Below, piece by piece: positions 9,676 to 15,536 of a stretch of 38,192 nt of DNA. Each line of letters begins with the position of its first letter. Positions within the stretch are counted from its first letter, which is position 1. The notes under the pieces are model-generated. The model made no database searches. It saw nothing but the letters and a program-made list of their open reading frames with translations, and was not told where the DNA came from. The DNA comes from an uncultured Bacilli bacterium. Its GTDB lineage: Bacteria > Bacillota_I > Bacilli_A > RF39 > UBA660. The position numbers were made by a program, and so were the translations under genes. The stretch lies in the NCBI GenBank assembly GCA_944358795.1, contig CALVRW010000001.1, positions 1 through 38,192 of the forward strand, written 5' to 3'.

Positions 9676-9693
9676 TACATGGGGGTCTTGCTT

Positions 9694-11409
9694 ATGGATA
9701 AAAGATTATTAACTGCTTTATTAAGAAAAAAAGAAGTTACAATTGAAGAAATAAAAGAATTTTATGGGTTGAATATTGAACAGACAATTGAACTTCTTTT
9801 ACAATATCTAAATGAGACGTTGGATGAAATAGAACAAAATGATAAAGTAGAATTTCCGAAATATTTGTTTCGTGTTTTACAAAAAATAGATCATTTATAC
9901 GGAGTTTATGTTGATGATGGGAATCATCATTTACCAAATTACCGACTATATCAAGAAATACAAGAACGTGTATTCTCTTTAGCCAAAACCAGAAAAATTA
10001 TTTCGAATGATGATTCTAGATTAAAAGATGATTGGTATTTAAATGTTTATTATTATCATCAAGAATGTTTTGCAAAATATCTTATGAATAGTCCAGAATT
10101 TTTAGAATTACTCATTCGAGATAAAACAATATTAGATGATTTTTTTCAAAACTATTTAAATCAATTATTTACTGACGATTATATAGAATATCGATATTGG
10201 AAATCATTACTACGCTATTTATTATTAGAAACAGAACATATTGAACCATGGATGAATGAATTTGCTCAAAAAATAGATCATTATATTAAGAATGAATTAA
10301 CAGATTTTCCATCAAAGTATCGTTATCGATTAAATGAACTAATGCATCTTTGTATTCAAATGAAATATCGTGAATTACCACATTCTAATCATTATCATGT
10401 TGAATTTTTGCCATCAAAAAAACAATCTTCATCATTAGAAATTTTTACAATTGATGAAGAAAATACGGGACTTAGAGAAGATGCACTTTCCATCTTTGAA
10501 GAAAATGGATTCGTACATGTTACGATGTATATTACCGATCCTACAGAACAATTTATGGCAGAAGAAGCATTGATCGAAGAAGCTTTTATGAATTGGTTTG
10601 TATATCGAAGAGATTATGTATTTGATTATGAATACGCAAAAGAAAATTTTTCATTAGACTGTAGGAAAGAACGTCCAGTGATTGCTTATGAAATGATATT
10701 TAATCAAGAAAATGAACTCATAGAAATACTCGTATATCCAACGAATATTTCTGTTTCTAAAAATTATAGTTATGATCGTATGAAAGATAAAATTGGACGA
10801 ATGAAACCAGAAGAAGTAGATGAAAAAGCACGACTTTATGAAATTGCAAAAGCACTCCATGAAGCGAATTATTCAAAAAAGAGATATCATAAAATAAAAG
10901 AGTTACAATATTACTTAGAATATAATAAGAAGTATCAACCAGAATCAAAATATATGGTAATTAGTGAATTTAAAGTTTTATTAGGAACGATTTTAGCTAA
11001 AGTATTTTTAGAAAGAGAGTTGCCACTGATTTATCGAAATAATGAATCAGAAGTAACGAAACAAGCAGTAGAACAAATTGAAGAAAAATGTAATCAAGAA
11101 AATGAAGAATCTTCCATTCGAAGAAAAATAGAAGATTTGAATTTACATTCTTATTATAGTTATGAAAATGTTGGACATCGAGGATTAGGTGTAAATCAAT
11201 ATACTCATATTACAACACCACTTAGAAATTATTTCGCATTGATTAATATGATGATATTAAAAGAATTACTAATTTATAATAAAAAAGATGAGATTCCTAC
11301 TTATCAAGAACTAGTTGAAAAATTAATTGAATTACAATATGGAAAACAACAAGATAAACAAAAAGTACTAGAGTTACATAGTATTAAACAAAGTTGTCAG
11401 GGGGAATGA
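9694..11409 (+). CDS. RNB-domain (RNase II/R-like) protein with degenerate active site
   Basis: A 571-residue protein. From residue 250 on it aligns by eye with the RNB domain of the RNase R encoded next door: FTID-x8-DALSI against VTID-x8-DAISI, LPLIYRNNE against LPFIYRVHE, and THITTPLRNY against THFTSPIRRY. Of the four Mg-binding aspartates of RNase R (D241, D247, D249, D250) only two remain (D254, D263); the others are L260 and E262. The N-terminus keeps a small helix-turn-helix-like region (1-50) similar to that of RNase R. The cold-shock OB domains are replaced by a helical region (about 55-230), and the C-terminal S1 domain is missing. It is probably an RNA-binding pseudo-nuclease. The ATG at 9694 is preferred because GGGGG lies 8 nt upstream. 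It sits 3 nt before rnr. Confidence 0.7.
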   Translation: MDKRLLTALLRKKEVTIEEIKEFYGLNIEQTIELLLQYLNETLDEIEQNDKVEFPKYLFRVLQKIDHLYGVYVDDGNHHLPNYRLYQEIQERVFSLAKTRKIISNDDSRLKDDWYLNVYYYHQECFAKYLMNSPEFLELLIRDKTILDDFFQNYLNQLFTDDYIEYRYWKSLLRYLLLETEHIEPWMNEFAQKIDHYIKNELTDFPSKYRYRLNELMHLCIQMKYRELPHSNHYHVEFLPSKKQSSSLEIFTIDEENTGLREDALSIFEENGFVHVTMYITDPTEQFMAEEALIEEAFMNWFVYRRDYVFDYEYAKENFSLDCRKERPVIAYEMIFNQENELIEILVYPTNISVSKNYSYDRMKDKIGRMKPEEVDEKARLYEIAKALHEANYSKKRYHKIKELQYYLEYNKKYQPESKYMVISEFKVLLGTILAKVFLERELPLIYRNNESEVTKQAVEQIEEKCNQENEESSIRRKIEDLNLHSYYSYENVGHRGLGVNQYTHITTPLRNYFALINMMILKELLIYNKKDEIPTYQELVEKLIELQYGKQQDKQKVLELHSIKQSCQGE

Positions 11410-11412
11410 CGG

Positions 11413-13497
11413 ATGAATTTAGAACGTGTATTACAATTGTTAAAAACAAAACATGGAATGTCAATTAAAGAATTAAGTAAAAAATTAAATGTAACAGAAG
11501 AAGAAGTTGAAGTTGCTTTAAAAGAATTACAAAATACATTACAAGTAAAAGAAATAATGCCGAAACAATATGTAAAGACAACTGATAAAAAACATGTTGT
11601 TGGAAAACTACAGATGACAAAAAAAGGATTTGGATTCTTAGTAAACGGAGAAAAGAAAATTCTAATTAAACAATCTGATTTATATGGAGCGTTAGATGGT
11701 GATACTATTTTAGTAGAATTAGAATCGAATCATCAAAAACCACGTGGTAAAGTAGTGGACCGAGTTATGCAGGAGCAAGAACATGTTGGAATCGTGTATG
11801 AACAAGATGGAAAGTTTTTTGCTAAATTAGATAATCCAAAATATCCTTTTCCAGTCTTATTAGAAAATATGGGTGGCGCATATATTGATAATAAAGTATT
11901 AGTAAAAATTGGAAAAAAGTATCAAGAAGATTATTATATTGGAACAGTTACTAGAGTATTAGGTCATAAAAATGATCCAAGAGTAGATGTGTTATCTATT
12001 ATAAAAGAACTTGGAATTCCTGATCAATTTTCTAAAAAAGTAATGGATCAAGTAGAAAAAATACCAACTCAGGTAACAGAAGAAGATCTTCAAAATAGAG
12101 TTGATTTACGTGACGAAATGATTGTTACAATTGATGGTGATACAGCAAAAGATTTCGATGATGCGATATCAATTAAGAGATTAGAAAATGGAAATTATGA
12201 ATTAGGAGTACATATTGCTGATGTTTCTCATTATGTACTAGAAGGAAATGAGATTGATAAAGAAGCATATAAACGAGGAACGAGTCTTTATACACCAGGC
12301 TATGTTACACCAATGCTTGCAAGCAAATTATCAAATGGTATTTGTTCATTAAATCCAGGTGTTGATCGTCTTACGATGACTTGTAAGATGGAGATTAACA
12401 CGAGAGGACAAATTATTAACACTGATATTTTTGAAAGTGTCATTCATTCTAAAAAGAGAATGACATACCACAATGTTAATCAAGCTTTAGATGGTAATCC
12501 AACAGAAGATTATCAAGAATTTACAGAATTATTACATACCATGTTAGAGTTATCTCATATTTTAAGAAAAGCAAAAAAGAAACGTGGTAGTATTGATTTT
12601 GATACTCAAGAACGTATCATTGAAACCAATGATTTAGGAGAACCAATTGCAATTGAAAATTATACGCGTGGAGAAGGAGAACGAATCATTGAAGACTTTA
12701 TGATTGCTGCGAATGAAGCTGTAACAACTCGTATGGTAGAATTAGGATTGCCGTTTATTTATCGAGTACATGAAGAACCAGATGAAGAAAAGTTAAATGT
12801 GTTTATCGAAACTACAAATAAATTAGATTTACCAGTTCATATTGATACAAGTCATGGTCCTGTACCAGTAAAAGTGTTACAAAAAGAATTAGATCGTTTT
12901 AGAAAAAACGAAAAATTCGATATTCTTGCATCTTTACTTCTTCGCAGTATGAAAAAAGCTTGCTATTCCAATTCAAATGCACATCATTATGCATTAGCAA
13001 GTCGAAATTATACACATTTTACTTCACCAATTCGTCGTTATCCAGATTTAATGGTTCATCGTGCATTAAAAGAGATGTTAAAAGGAAATGTAAAACCATC
13101 TAAATTTAATGCAATCGAGAAAAAGTACGAAAGAATGACTGAACAAGCATCTTATTGTGAGAGAAGAGCAGAAGAATGCGAGCGAATAGTAGAAAAAATG
13201 AAATGCGCTGAATATTTAGAATCTCATATCGGAGAAACATTTGATGGTAAAATTACATGGTTAGATAAAAAAGGAATTTATGTAACATTAAAAAATCTAA
13301 TTCCTGGACAAGTTAATATTGAAAATTTAGATGATGTTTCTTATCATGAAGAGAAACTTACTTATGAAAATCAAAATCATAGTAAAATTTATAAAATTGG
13401 TGATCCTGTTTCATTAAGATTAATTCGCACTGATAAGGAACATCAAGTAATAGAATTTGATATTTTACCAACTAAAAAAGTAAAAGTAAAAAAATGA
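11413..13497 (+). CDS. rnr: Ribonuclease R
   Basis: A processive 3'-5' exoribonuclease that degrades structured RNA and takes part in RNA quality control. The 694-residue protein has an N-terminal HTH_12 domain (1-60) and cold-shock/OB domains (about 65-230). The RNB catalytic domain contains V-T-I-D-G-D-T-A-K-D-F-D-D-A-I-S (D241, D247, D249, D250) and S-P-I-R-R-Y (538-543). A C-terminal S1 domain follows (about 608-690), ending in a Lys-rich tail. Length and layout are standard. It starts 3 nt after the RNase R-like gene behind AGGGGGA. In B. subtilis rnr is followed by smpB and ssrA; here the next element is a large structured RNA instead. Confidence 0.95.
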   Translation: MNLERVLQLLKTKHGMSIKELSKKLNVTEEEVEVALKELQNTLQVKEIMPKQYVKTTDKKHVVGKLQMTKKGFGFLVNGEKKILIKQSDLYGALDGDTILVELESNHQKPRGKVVDRVMQEQEHVGIVYEQDGKFFAKLDNPKYPFPVLLENMGGAYIDNKVLVKIGKKYQEDYYIGTVTRVLGHKNDPRVDVLSIIKELGIPDQFSKKVMDQVEKIPTQVTEEDLQNRVDLRDEMIVTIDGDTAKDFDDAISIKRLENGNYELGVHIADVSHYVLEGNEIDKEAYKRGTSLYTPGYVTPMLASKLSNGICSLNPGVDRLTMTCKMEINTRGQIINTDIFESVIHSKKRMTYHNVNQALDGNPTEDYQEFTELLHTMLELSHILRKAKKKRGSIDFDTQERIIETNDLGEPIAIENYTRGEGERIIEDFMIAANEAVTTRMVELGLPFIYRVHEEPDEEKLNVFIETTNKLDLPVHIDTSHGPVPVKVLQKELDRFRKNEKFDILASLLLRSMKKACYSNSNAHHYALASRNYTHFTSPIRRYPDLMVHRALKEMLKGNVKPSKFNAIEKKYERMTEQASYCERRAEECERIVEKMKCAEYLESHIGETFDGKITWLDKKGIYVTLKNLIPGQVNIENLDDVSYHEEKLTYENQNHSKIYKIGDPVSLRLIRTDKEHQVIEFDILPTKKVKVKK

Positions 13498-13541: not shown

Positions 13542-13569
13542 TTGACAAACGGTATAAATTTGATATAAT
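13542..13569 (+). promoter_or_regulatory. Strong promoter of the large structured RNA
   Basis: A consensus -35 TTGACA (13542-13547), 16-nt spacer and consensus -10 TATAAT (13564-13569). It is the closest match to consensus in the window and predicts a transcript start near 13576, ten bases before the closing helix of the RNA. Confidence 0.85.
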
Positions 13570-13575
13570 TACTCA

Positions 13576-14161
13576 TATAAATAAGTGAATGGCACATTAT
13601 TCTAGTCAATTTTATTTATTATGAAGACGGGGCTAAAAATCCGTTAAAGAGCATATCTATGAAACTTTTGGTGCTTGCTTCATACGCCCAGTTTGGGGTG
13701 GGTGCTGGAAGGAAGAAAAATTGGGCGACCGTAATGGCATACGATCACGACCCACTTTTTCGTGGAGACCTAATCTTGTTATAACACGAAGTTATGACGA
13801 ATTAGGCTTGAACCTACTATGTGAGGTAACTTACGAGTAGTGTAGCTTGTCTTGAGTGGTAACTTGGGATATTTGATCAAATAAACTAGTTGTGGCCACA
13901 AAGAGTTTGTTATCGCAAGTTGAAATTGTTACTGCAAAAGAGAATTAATAATAAAGAATTGTTGAGGAAAACTCCTAGAATGTAGATCCAGATAGGATTG
14001 CAGTGTGTACTAAGTGGTAATCAAGTCATGTATGCGGTGACGCTACATTTATCCTTTTGATGGGGAACCGCTTTTCTGGTAACGGAGAGTAAGGATAAGG
14101 GAAAACCTACTTGACCTGAAGGCGCAAAGTTTACTATATGGATAGCCATTCATTTTTTTTT
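13576..14161 (+). ncRNA. ole: OLE-type large structured non-coding RNA
   Basis: A 685-bp gap without a plausible protein gene holds a structured RNA of about 585 nt, GC-richer than its surroundings. TGAATGGC (13586-13593) is perfectly complementary to GCCATTCA (14145-14152), closing the whole element, and nine T follow. Nested helices include CCTAAT/ATTAGG (13769-13806) with an inner ATAAC/GTTAT hairpin, ATGTAG/CTACAT (near 13980 and 14043), and ATCCTT/AAGGAT (near 14051 and 14091). Size, the promoter right upstream, and a downstream gene for a small OapA-like membrane protein fit OLE (Ornate, Large, Extremophilic) RNA, which binds OapA at the membrane. It lacks tmRNA features and the RNase P core. 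The identification leans on context; a covariance-model match was not run. Confidence 0.75.
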
Positions 14162-14182
14162 ACAATCATGAAGGAGTTAATC

Positions 14183-14767
14183 ATGGAAAAAAAAGAACAA
14201 GAAGTGATTCGGAAGTTAAAAAAAGCAAATAAGAAAAAAGAAAAATCAAATTATATATGGGTATTAGAAATTACATTAATCGCATTATTCATTTCCTTTT
14301 TCTTTTCTTTTGGTTCAGAAACAATCTTGCCAAATGTTGGAATGTTGATTAGTATTATCTTAGTGATTCTTTTTATTTTAATTGGTATTATTTTTGATAT
14401 GATTGGGGTATCTGTAACGGCTGCAAATGAAAGACCATTTCATTCTATGAGTGCACAAAAAGTAAAGGGTTCGAAAGTAGCGATTAAATTAATTCATAAT
14501 GCAAATAAAGTATCTTCTTTCTGTAATGATGTAATCGGTGATATTTGTGGTATTATTTCAGGTTCTGCTGGTGTAATAGTTGCCGATAATATCGTAGAAA
14601 CGTGTCATACTGATCCACTTTTTACAACGTTAGTGATAACAGCTATTATTGCCGCATTTACGATTGGTGGGAAAGCGCTTGGAAAGAGTTTTGCAATTAA
14701 TCAAAGTAATATGATTTTATATGAATTTGCGAAAGTAATATCATGTGTATATAAACCAAAAAAGTAA
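14183..14767 (+). CDS. oapA: OapA-like membrane protein (OLE RNA-associated)
   Basis: A 194-residue basic membrane protein. A Lys-rich N-terminus (1-22) precedes two strong membrane segments (25-46 and 52-76). A conserved-looking cytoplasmic block reads VSVTAANERPFHSMSAQKV (77-95), then N-A-N-K-V-S-S-F-C-N-D-V-I-G-D-I-C-G. A Gly-rich hydrophobic stretch (121-137) and a further membrane segment (147-164) follow. This matches my recollection of OapA, the DUF21-related protein that tethers OLE RNA to the membrane and is encoded directly after it. The ATG at 14183 is chosen for its AAGGAG site; the in-frame ATG at 14138 lies inside the RNA's 3' helix. Many basic residues next to the membrane suit RNA binding. 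Confidence 0.75.
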   Translation: MEKKEQEVIRKLKKANKKKEKSNYIWVLEITLIALFISFFFSFGSETILPNVGMLISIILVILFILIGIIFDMIGVSVTAANERPFHSMSAQKVKGSKVAIKLIHNANKVSSFCNDVIGDICGIISGSAGVIVADNIVETCHTDPLFTTLVITAIIAAFTIGGKALGKSFAINQSNMILYEFAKVISCVYKPKK

Positions 14768-14822: not shown

Positions 14823-15536
14823 ATGCAACGATATTTTAGTAAAGAATTAAAAGATGGTTATTTTACATTAGATGAGAATGATTTATATCATATTCGTGTT
14901 GTTATGCGAATGAAAGATCAAGATAAAATCGAAGTTGTTTACCAAGAAAAGATGTATTTATCGTGTCTAGAAAATGTAAATGGAATGTATAGGGTAAAAG
15001 CGTTAGAAATAATTGAAAATGATGTACAAAAAATACCGGAAGTAGTACTTTGTATTCCGTTATTAAAAGAGCAAAAAATGGATTTTATTATTCAAAAAGC
15101 AACGGAGCTTGGAGTACATAAAATTATTCCGTTAAAACTATCACGAAACGTTGTAAAACTTGAACAAAATAAAGAAATGAAACGTGTGGAAAGATGGAAT
15201 AAAATTGCGAAAGAAGCGAGTGAACAATCGAAGCGTGTAACGATACCAGAAGTAACTGGTGTACTAGAGATAAAAGAGTTAGAAAAAATGGAAGGGTTGA
15301 AGCTTGTCTGCAGTACAGTCAGTAACAATAATAATTTACATATTCTTTTGCAAAACCATGTAAACTGTGATAGAATAATAGTAGTGATTGGTCCTGAGGG
15401 TGGACTATCGACGTTAGAAGAGGAAACACTTATGCAAATTGGCTTTCTTCCCGTACGTTTAGGAAATAATATTATGCGAGTGGAAACTGTGCCAATTTTT
15501 TTCATGAGTATTATTAATTATGAATATATGGAGTGA
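14823..15536 (+). CDS. rsmE: 16S rRNA (uracil1498-N3)-methyltransferase RsmE
   Basis: A SPOUT-class methyltransferase that uses SAM to methylate N3 of U1498 in helix 44 of 16S rRNA. The 237-residue protein has the N-terminal PUA-like domain (MQRYFS, then DLYHIRVVMRMKDQDKIEV) and the C-terminal trefoil-knot motifs LLKEQKMDFIIQKATELGV, SRN, W-x-K-I-A-x-E-A-x-E-Q, IGPEGGLS and LGNNIMRVETV. In most homologues the last motif reads LG-x-R-I-L-R-x-E-T-A, so the N-N-I-M version is a mild variant. A GGTGATT site precedes the ATG. The rsmE-then-mtaB order matches Bacilli (yqeU-yqeV), with one extra gene inserted between them here. Confidence 0.92.
   Translation: MQRYFSKELKDGYFTLDENDLYHIRVVMRMKDQDKIEVVYQEKMYLSCLENVNGMYRVKALEIIENDVQKIPEVVLCIPLLKEQKMDFIIQKATELGVHKIIPLKLSRNVVKLEQNKEMKRVERWNKIAKEASEQSKRVTIPEVTGVLEIKELEKMEGLKLVCSTVSNNNNLHILLQNHVNCDRIIVVIGPEGGLSTLEEETLMQIGFLPVRLGNNIMRVETVPIFFMSIINYEYME

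Follow-up and report, generated by a model that had tools for sequence, protein, structure and literature searches.

The window, i.e. the whole 38,192-nt stretch of DNA analysed here, contains an OLE RNA gene, preceded by a promoter sequence and followed on the same strand by a gene encoding a small membrane protein. OLE RNAs are among the largest structured bacterial RNAs. The features of the locus are the following.

11413-13497, + strand: RNase R gene (rnr), upstream and outside the OLE unit; RNB, CSD2, OB_RNB and S1 domains
13542-13569, + strand: sigma-A type promoter of ole; TTGACA (13542-13547), 16-nt spacer, TATAAT (13564-13569), TG before the -10 box
13573-14165, + strand: OLE RNA gene, full-length form; RF01071 match, covariation in 67 relatives, folding z-score -5.1
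13586-13593, + strand: 5' arm of P1, the end-closing helix, TGAATGGC; perfect 8-bp pairing with GCCATTCA at 14145-14152
13656-13711, + strand: kink-turn region around P5; 5' strand UC-UAU-GA (13656-13662), other strand 13705-13711
14028-14098, + strand: P12.2 and P13 hairpins; GNRA-type loops, GGGAAC
14145-14161, + strand: 3' arm of P1, GCCATTCA (14145-14152), and nine T (14153-14161); candidate RNA 3' end
14183-14767, + strand: oapA, membrane protein OapA, 194 aa; DxxxD motif, weak CNNM match, predicted fold, co-occurrence with OLE
14823-15536, + strand: rsmE-type RNA methyltransferase gene, downstream and outside the OLE unit; PF04452

The Rfam covariance model of OLE (RF01071, gathering cut-off 50 bits), whose use had been proposed in an earlier note made from the sequence letters, matches positions 13573-14165 of the forward strand with 433.3 bits (E 3.8e-124), from model position 1 to 616, that is over the whole model. 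When the window was scanned with 4227 Rfam families, none but OLE exceeded its own cut-off. This result refutes assignment to another large ornate RNA class, such as ROOL or GOLLD, or to an unrelated repeat-rich intergenic region, readings that size and complexity alone would favor and that are left with practically no probability. The stretch between 13570 and 14165 is explained by no protein family, in line with the note's description of about 585 nt lacking a plausible protein gene; the listed frame 14138-14767 corresponds to oapA with its start taken at an ATG further upstream in the same frame. The other elements that the note had named, i.e. the near-consensus promoter, the 8-bp helix joining the ends with its nine T, the small downstream membrane protein and the position between rnr and rsmE, are each present where it had placed them. 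The RNA had also been called divergent, a description which does not hold, because its score ranks among the best in the order; it is therefore not an especially divergent OLE. The draft genome (1.17 Mb) contains no other OLE copy.

The predicted folding energy of the RNA is -170.1 kcal/mol, against -138.1 +/- 6.3 kcal/mol for dinucleotide shuffles, and all helices of the model are aligned in the window sequence, 140 of the 153 model pairs being standard. The Rfam structure, with P1 added, was projected onto an alignment of 67 full-length OLE sequences from the same family. Paired cells amount to 87.3%, two-sided changes are found in 126 of 160 pairs, and the covariation score is 0.439, compared with 0.179 after shuffling and 0.087-0.121 for slid structures. 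The secondary structure expected of an OLE member is conserved, with covariation, across these relatives. For P1 itself, 81% of the cells are paired and two-sided changes occur at five of the seven tested pairs, while a run of at least five T follows the helix in 40 of 104 loci. The transcript probably begins near 13576 and ends near 14161, for a length of about 590 nt.

All 12 promoter positions match the consensus. Among 101 related loci, 94 have an equivalent promoter that agrees with the consensus at 10 or more of the 12 positions, against 11% in shuffled sequences, and 35 have one that agrees at all 12, against 0%. In nearly all related loci with a promoter, the -10 box lies 11-24 nt ahead of a common reference point. 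Thus, judging by sequence, ole seems to be served by a promoter of its own in order RF39, unlike in Halalkalibacterium halodurans (H. halodurans), where the cluster is described as giving a single polycistronic transcript (PMC12265935).

The oapA gene starts 18 nt past the last base of the Rfam OLE match and is preceded by the Shine-Dalgarno sequence GAAGGAG. The OapA-specific DxxxD motif reads DVIGD here, with neither aspartate varying among 17 sequences. Searched against Pfam at the default threshold, the 194-aa protein yielded no match; the best weak one is CNNM (PF01595), with 19.1 bits, under the family cut-off of 28.4, and a similarly weak CNNM match is reported for published OapA (PMC11332333). 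An AlphaFold2 model of the protein (pLDDT 86.6) finds its nearest solved folds among CNNM/CorB proteins, the best being the archaeal CNNM transporter MtCorB (PDB 7m1t, Z 14.7, 2.2 A over 130 residues). Such a likeness to the CNNM/CorB-type fold is known for OapA. Comparison of an OapA profile with PDB sequences gave no match, and a homologue from Caloramator quimbayensis shows 53% identity. While the predicted transmembrane fold resembles that of the CNNM/MpfA/CorB magnesium transporters, OapA differs from them in lacking CBS and CorC domains, in carrying the DxxxD motif and in having an extra N-terminal helix with a basic tail.

Motif, weak CNNM profile, predicted fold and co-occurrence with OLE support the identification of the protein as OapA, as the earlier note had suggested. 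Of the 23 family genomes, all 15 that are OLE-positive have OapA, one copy being truncated at a contig end, and the eight OLE-negative ones have none. A true MpfA/CNNM transporter was found in none of the OLE-positive family genomes and in one OLE-negative genome; these counts agree with the known anticorrelation between OLE and this transporter. Taken as a whole, the window locus is very probably an OLE-OapA locus. It resembles the OLE representatives of H. halodurans and Clostridium acetobutylicum (RF01071) in its full length and in having oapA directly downstream, and differs from them in its host, which belongs to a reduced-genome, probably gut-associated Bacilli lineage.

Within the flanks examined, oapA was found at 99 of 104 OLE loci. 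In four genomes (G035, G112, G178 and G180), no oapA was found in the roughly 1.2-1.5 kb that flank a full-length OLE on each side. Because the RNA immediately precedes oapA, in the same orientation, at almost every locus, and its T tract falls just ahead of the oapA ribosome site, it might be read as a structured cis-regulatory leader of oapA, similar to a riboswitch, instead of a free RNA. This is very unlikely, given that the H. halodurans OLE has been characterised as an RNA acting in trans (PMC9723947, PMC12265935), that oapA is 0.4-1.3 kb away from OLE in several genomes, and that the two are unlinked in one (G004, loci L012/L109), where oapA is on contig C12 and OLE on contig C3, about 30 kb from its start.

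The rnr gene adjoins OLE in two of the 104 loci, both from one genus, and rsmE in three. The proximity to RNase R, which the earlier note had called notable, therefore carries no weight. Upstream of the locus, the window contains two tandem RNB-domain ribonucleases, a divergent 576-aa RNase R/II-like protein (9679-11409) and the full RNase R (11413-13497).

In addition to OapA, partners of the OLE RNA include OapB and OapC, and bS21 is another reported component of the particle. Homologues of oapB and oapC, which the earlier note had proposed to seek elsewhere in the genome, were found in neither case. OapC, of the L7Ae family, was detected in none of the 23 family genomes, against 13 of 14 genomes from other Bacilli families. 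The usual place of OapB is the translation operon, between map and infA. In Caloramator a protein at this position matches PDB 7k9b, 'OLE-associated protein B', with E 6.6e-11; in the window genome the slot is empty, map and infA being about 8 bases apart. A search with the KOW domain (PF00467) was discarded as a test for OapB, as even in two OapB-encoding genomes it returned only proteins of the size of L24 or NusG; for this reason OapB was sought by gene position and by an OapB alignment. The resulting profile, built from two rows only and limited accordingly, gave nothing significant in the 23 family genomes. As the draft assembly of the window genome comprises 57 contigs and is 94% complete, the absence of both proteins rests on their family-wide absence. 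bS21 is encoded in all 23 family genomes. OapB and OapC occur in about 60% and 45% of OLE-containing organisms, respectively, and do not define OLE (PMC11332333); they are a feature of some members, found in H. halodurans and not in the genome or family considered here.

The RNA elements associated with these proteins are retained. The kink-turn region around P5, which is the OapC site in H. halodurans, shows the UC/CC-NNN-GA pattern in 61 of the 67 full-length relatives. In the P12.2/P13 region, the OapB site in that species, P13 has a GNRA-type loop in 64 of 67 relatives, with the adjacent GGGAAC likewise in 64 of 67, and P12.2 has such a loop in 52 of 67. Most likely these motifs serve the folding of the RNA itself, which is the simplest reading given that cryo-EM of the RNA without protein shows a formed kink-turn (PMC12286853). 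In H. halodurans, function depends on OapB and OapC, and therefore the RF39 particle may act differently or have other replacements.

OLE has already been reported in the reduced-genome order RF39, without OapB and OapC (PMC11332333), and the window copy adds another member to those known in this clade. Of 385 genomes sampled from the order, 212 carry OLE and none was seen in the other 173, so OLE loss is common there. The sampled members all belong to one family and have small draft genomes, mostly of 0.8-1.7 Mb; the named relatives, by OapA, are mostly uncultured Bacilli from metagenome assemblies of rabbit and ruminant guts. This frequent lack of OLE, together with the missing OapB and OapC, could indicate a decaying locus, in which a reduced genome retains the RNA at full length although its partners and its function are gone. 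Decay is very unlikely indeed, being already disfavored by conservation: the match of 433 bits extends over the whole RF01071 model, covariation is strong, the promoter is conserved, oapA is intact with its invariant DxxxD, and OLE and OapA are strictly paired.

The lengths of OLE in the 104 loci have a bimodal distribution: 67 are full-length (543-617 nt) and 35 short (480-562 nt), with two mini forms of 381 nt (L104:4163-4543, genome G036) and 378 nt (L199, G079:C5:12168-12545). The window copy shares its order with OLE variant 2 of the RF39 clade (PMC11332333), and short forms are common among its relatives, but it is itself full-length and aligned through the P7-P9 region. In the mini-OLEs, P1-P3 and domain 2 are retained and oapA still follows, but the greater part of domain 1 (about model positions 74-277, from P4 to P8) is missing. 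This reduction goes further than in the variants reported in PMC11332333. A similarly low-scoring OLE match is present in G303, from the same genus as G036.

Some genomes deviate from the single-copy pattern. Two full-length matches were detected in G239 (C37:9232-9824 and C101:1296-1892, with 378.9 and 349.9 bits), resulting either from a strain mixture or from a real duplication. Two copies in G026 were not accepted, as a contig end truncates the second, whose 5' end is degenerate; this copy is probably partial or an assembly effect. An N-terminal OapA tail of at least 15 residues is found in 45 of 62 full-length loci, versus two of 37 short or mini ones. This association was discounted as independent evidence, because it stems from essentially one old split in the OapA tree, amounting to two or three independent pairs. 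One genus (g87) includes both G153, which has a short OLE and an OapA that groups with the short-OLE clade, and two genomes with a full-length OLE (G103 and G172), a mixture possibly due to exchange of the ole-oapA unit.

These data suggest the following model. The strong sigma-A promoter would drive synthesis of the full-length OLE RNA, with helix P1 closing its ends and oapA translated just downstream. The RNA would bind the CNNM-like protein OapA and in this way sit at the membrane, where the particle, by analogy with H. halodurans, may aid adaptation to stress and to changes in metal ions. In this small genome it appears to run without OapB and OapC. A two-component membrane ribonucleoprotein formed by OLE and OapA, perhaps with bS21, is a reasonably likely outcome. 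Its extension to the whole order is more tentative and has somewhat less than an even chance: a stripped-down particle of OLE, OapA and perhaps bS21, with the kink-turn and P12.2/P13 kept for folding and not for OapC and OapB, and with one lineage that dispenses with almost the whole of domain 1, which forms dimers and includes the P4a OapA site, and still has oapA.

Three points may interest a specialist: OapB and OapC are missing while their sites are retained, the promoter is conserved, and a mini-OLE lineage exists. A lineage which keeps OLE and OapA, seemingly without the other known essential partners, and in which a natural form of 380 nt exists, shows which parts are under selection, and the mini-OLEs offer small constructs for biochemical and structural work. 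If the order-wide stripped-down particle is real, the functional core of OLE would consist of domain 2 plus P1-P3.
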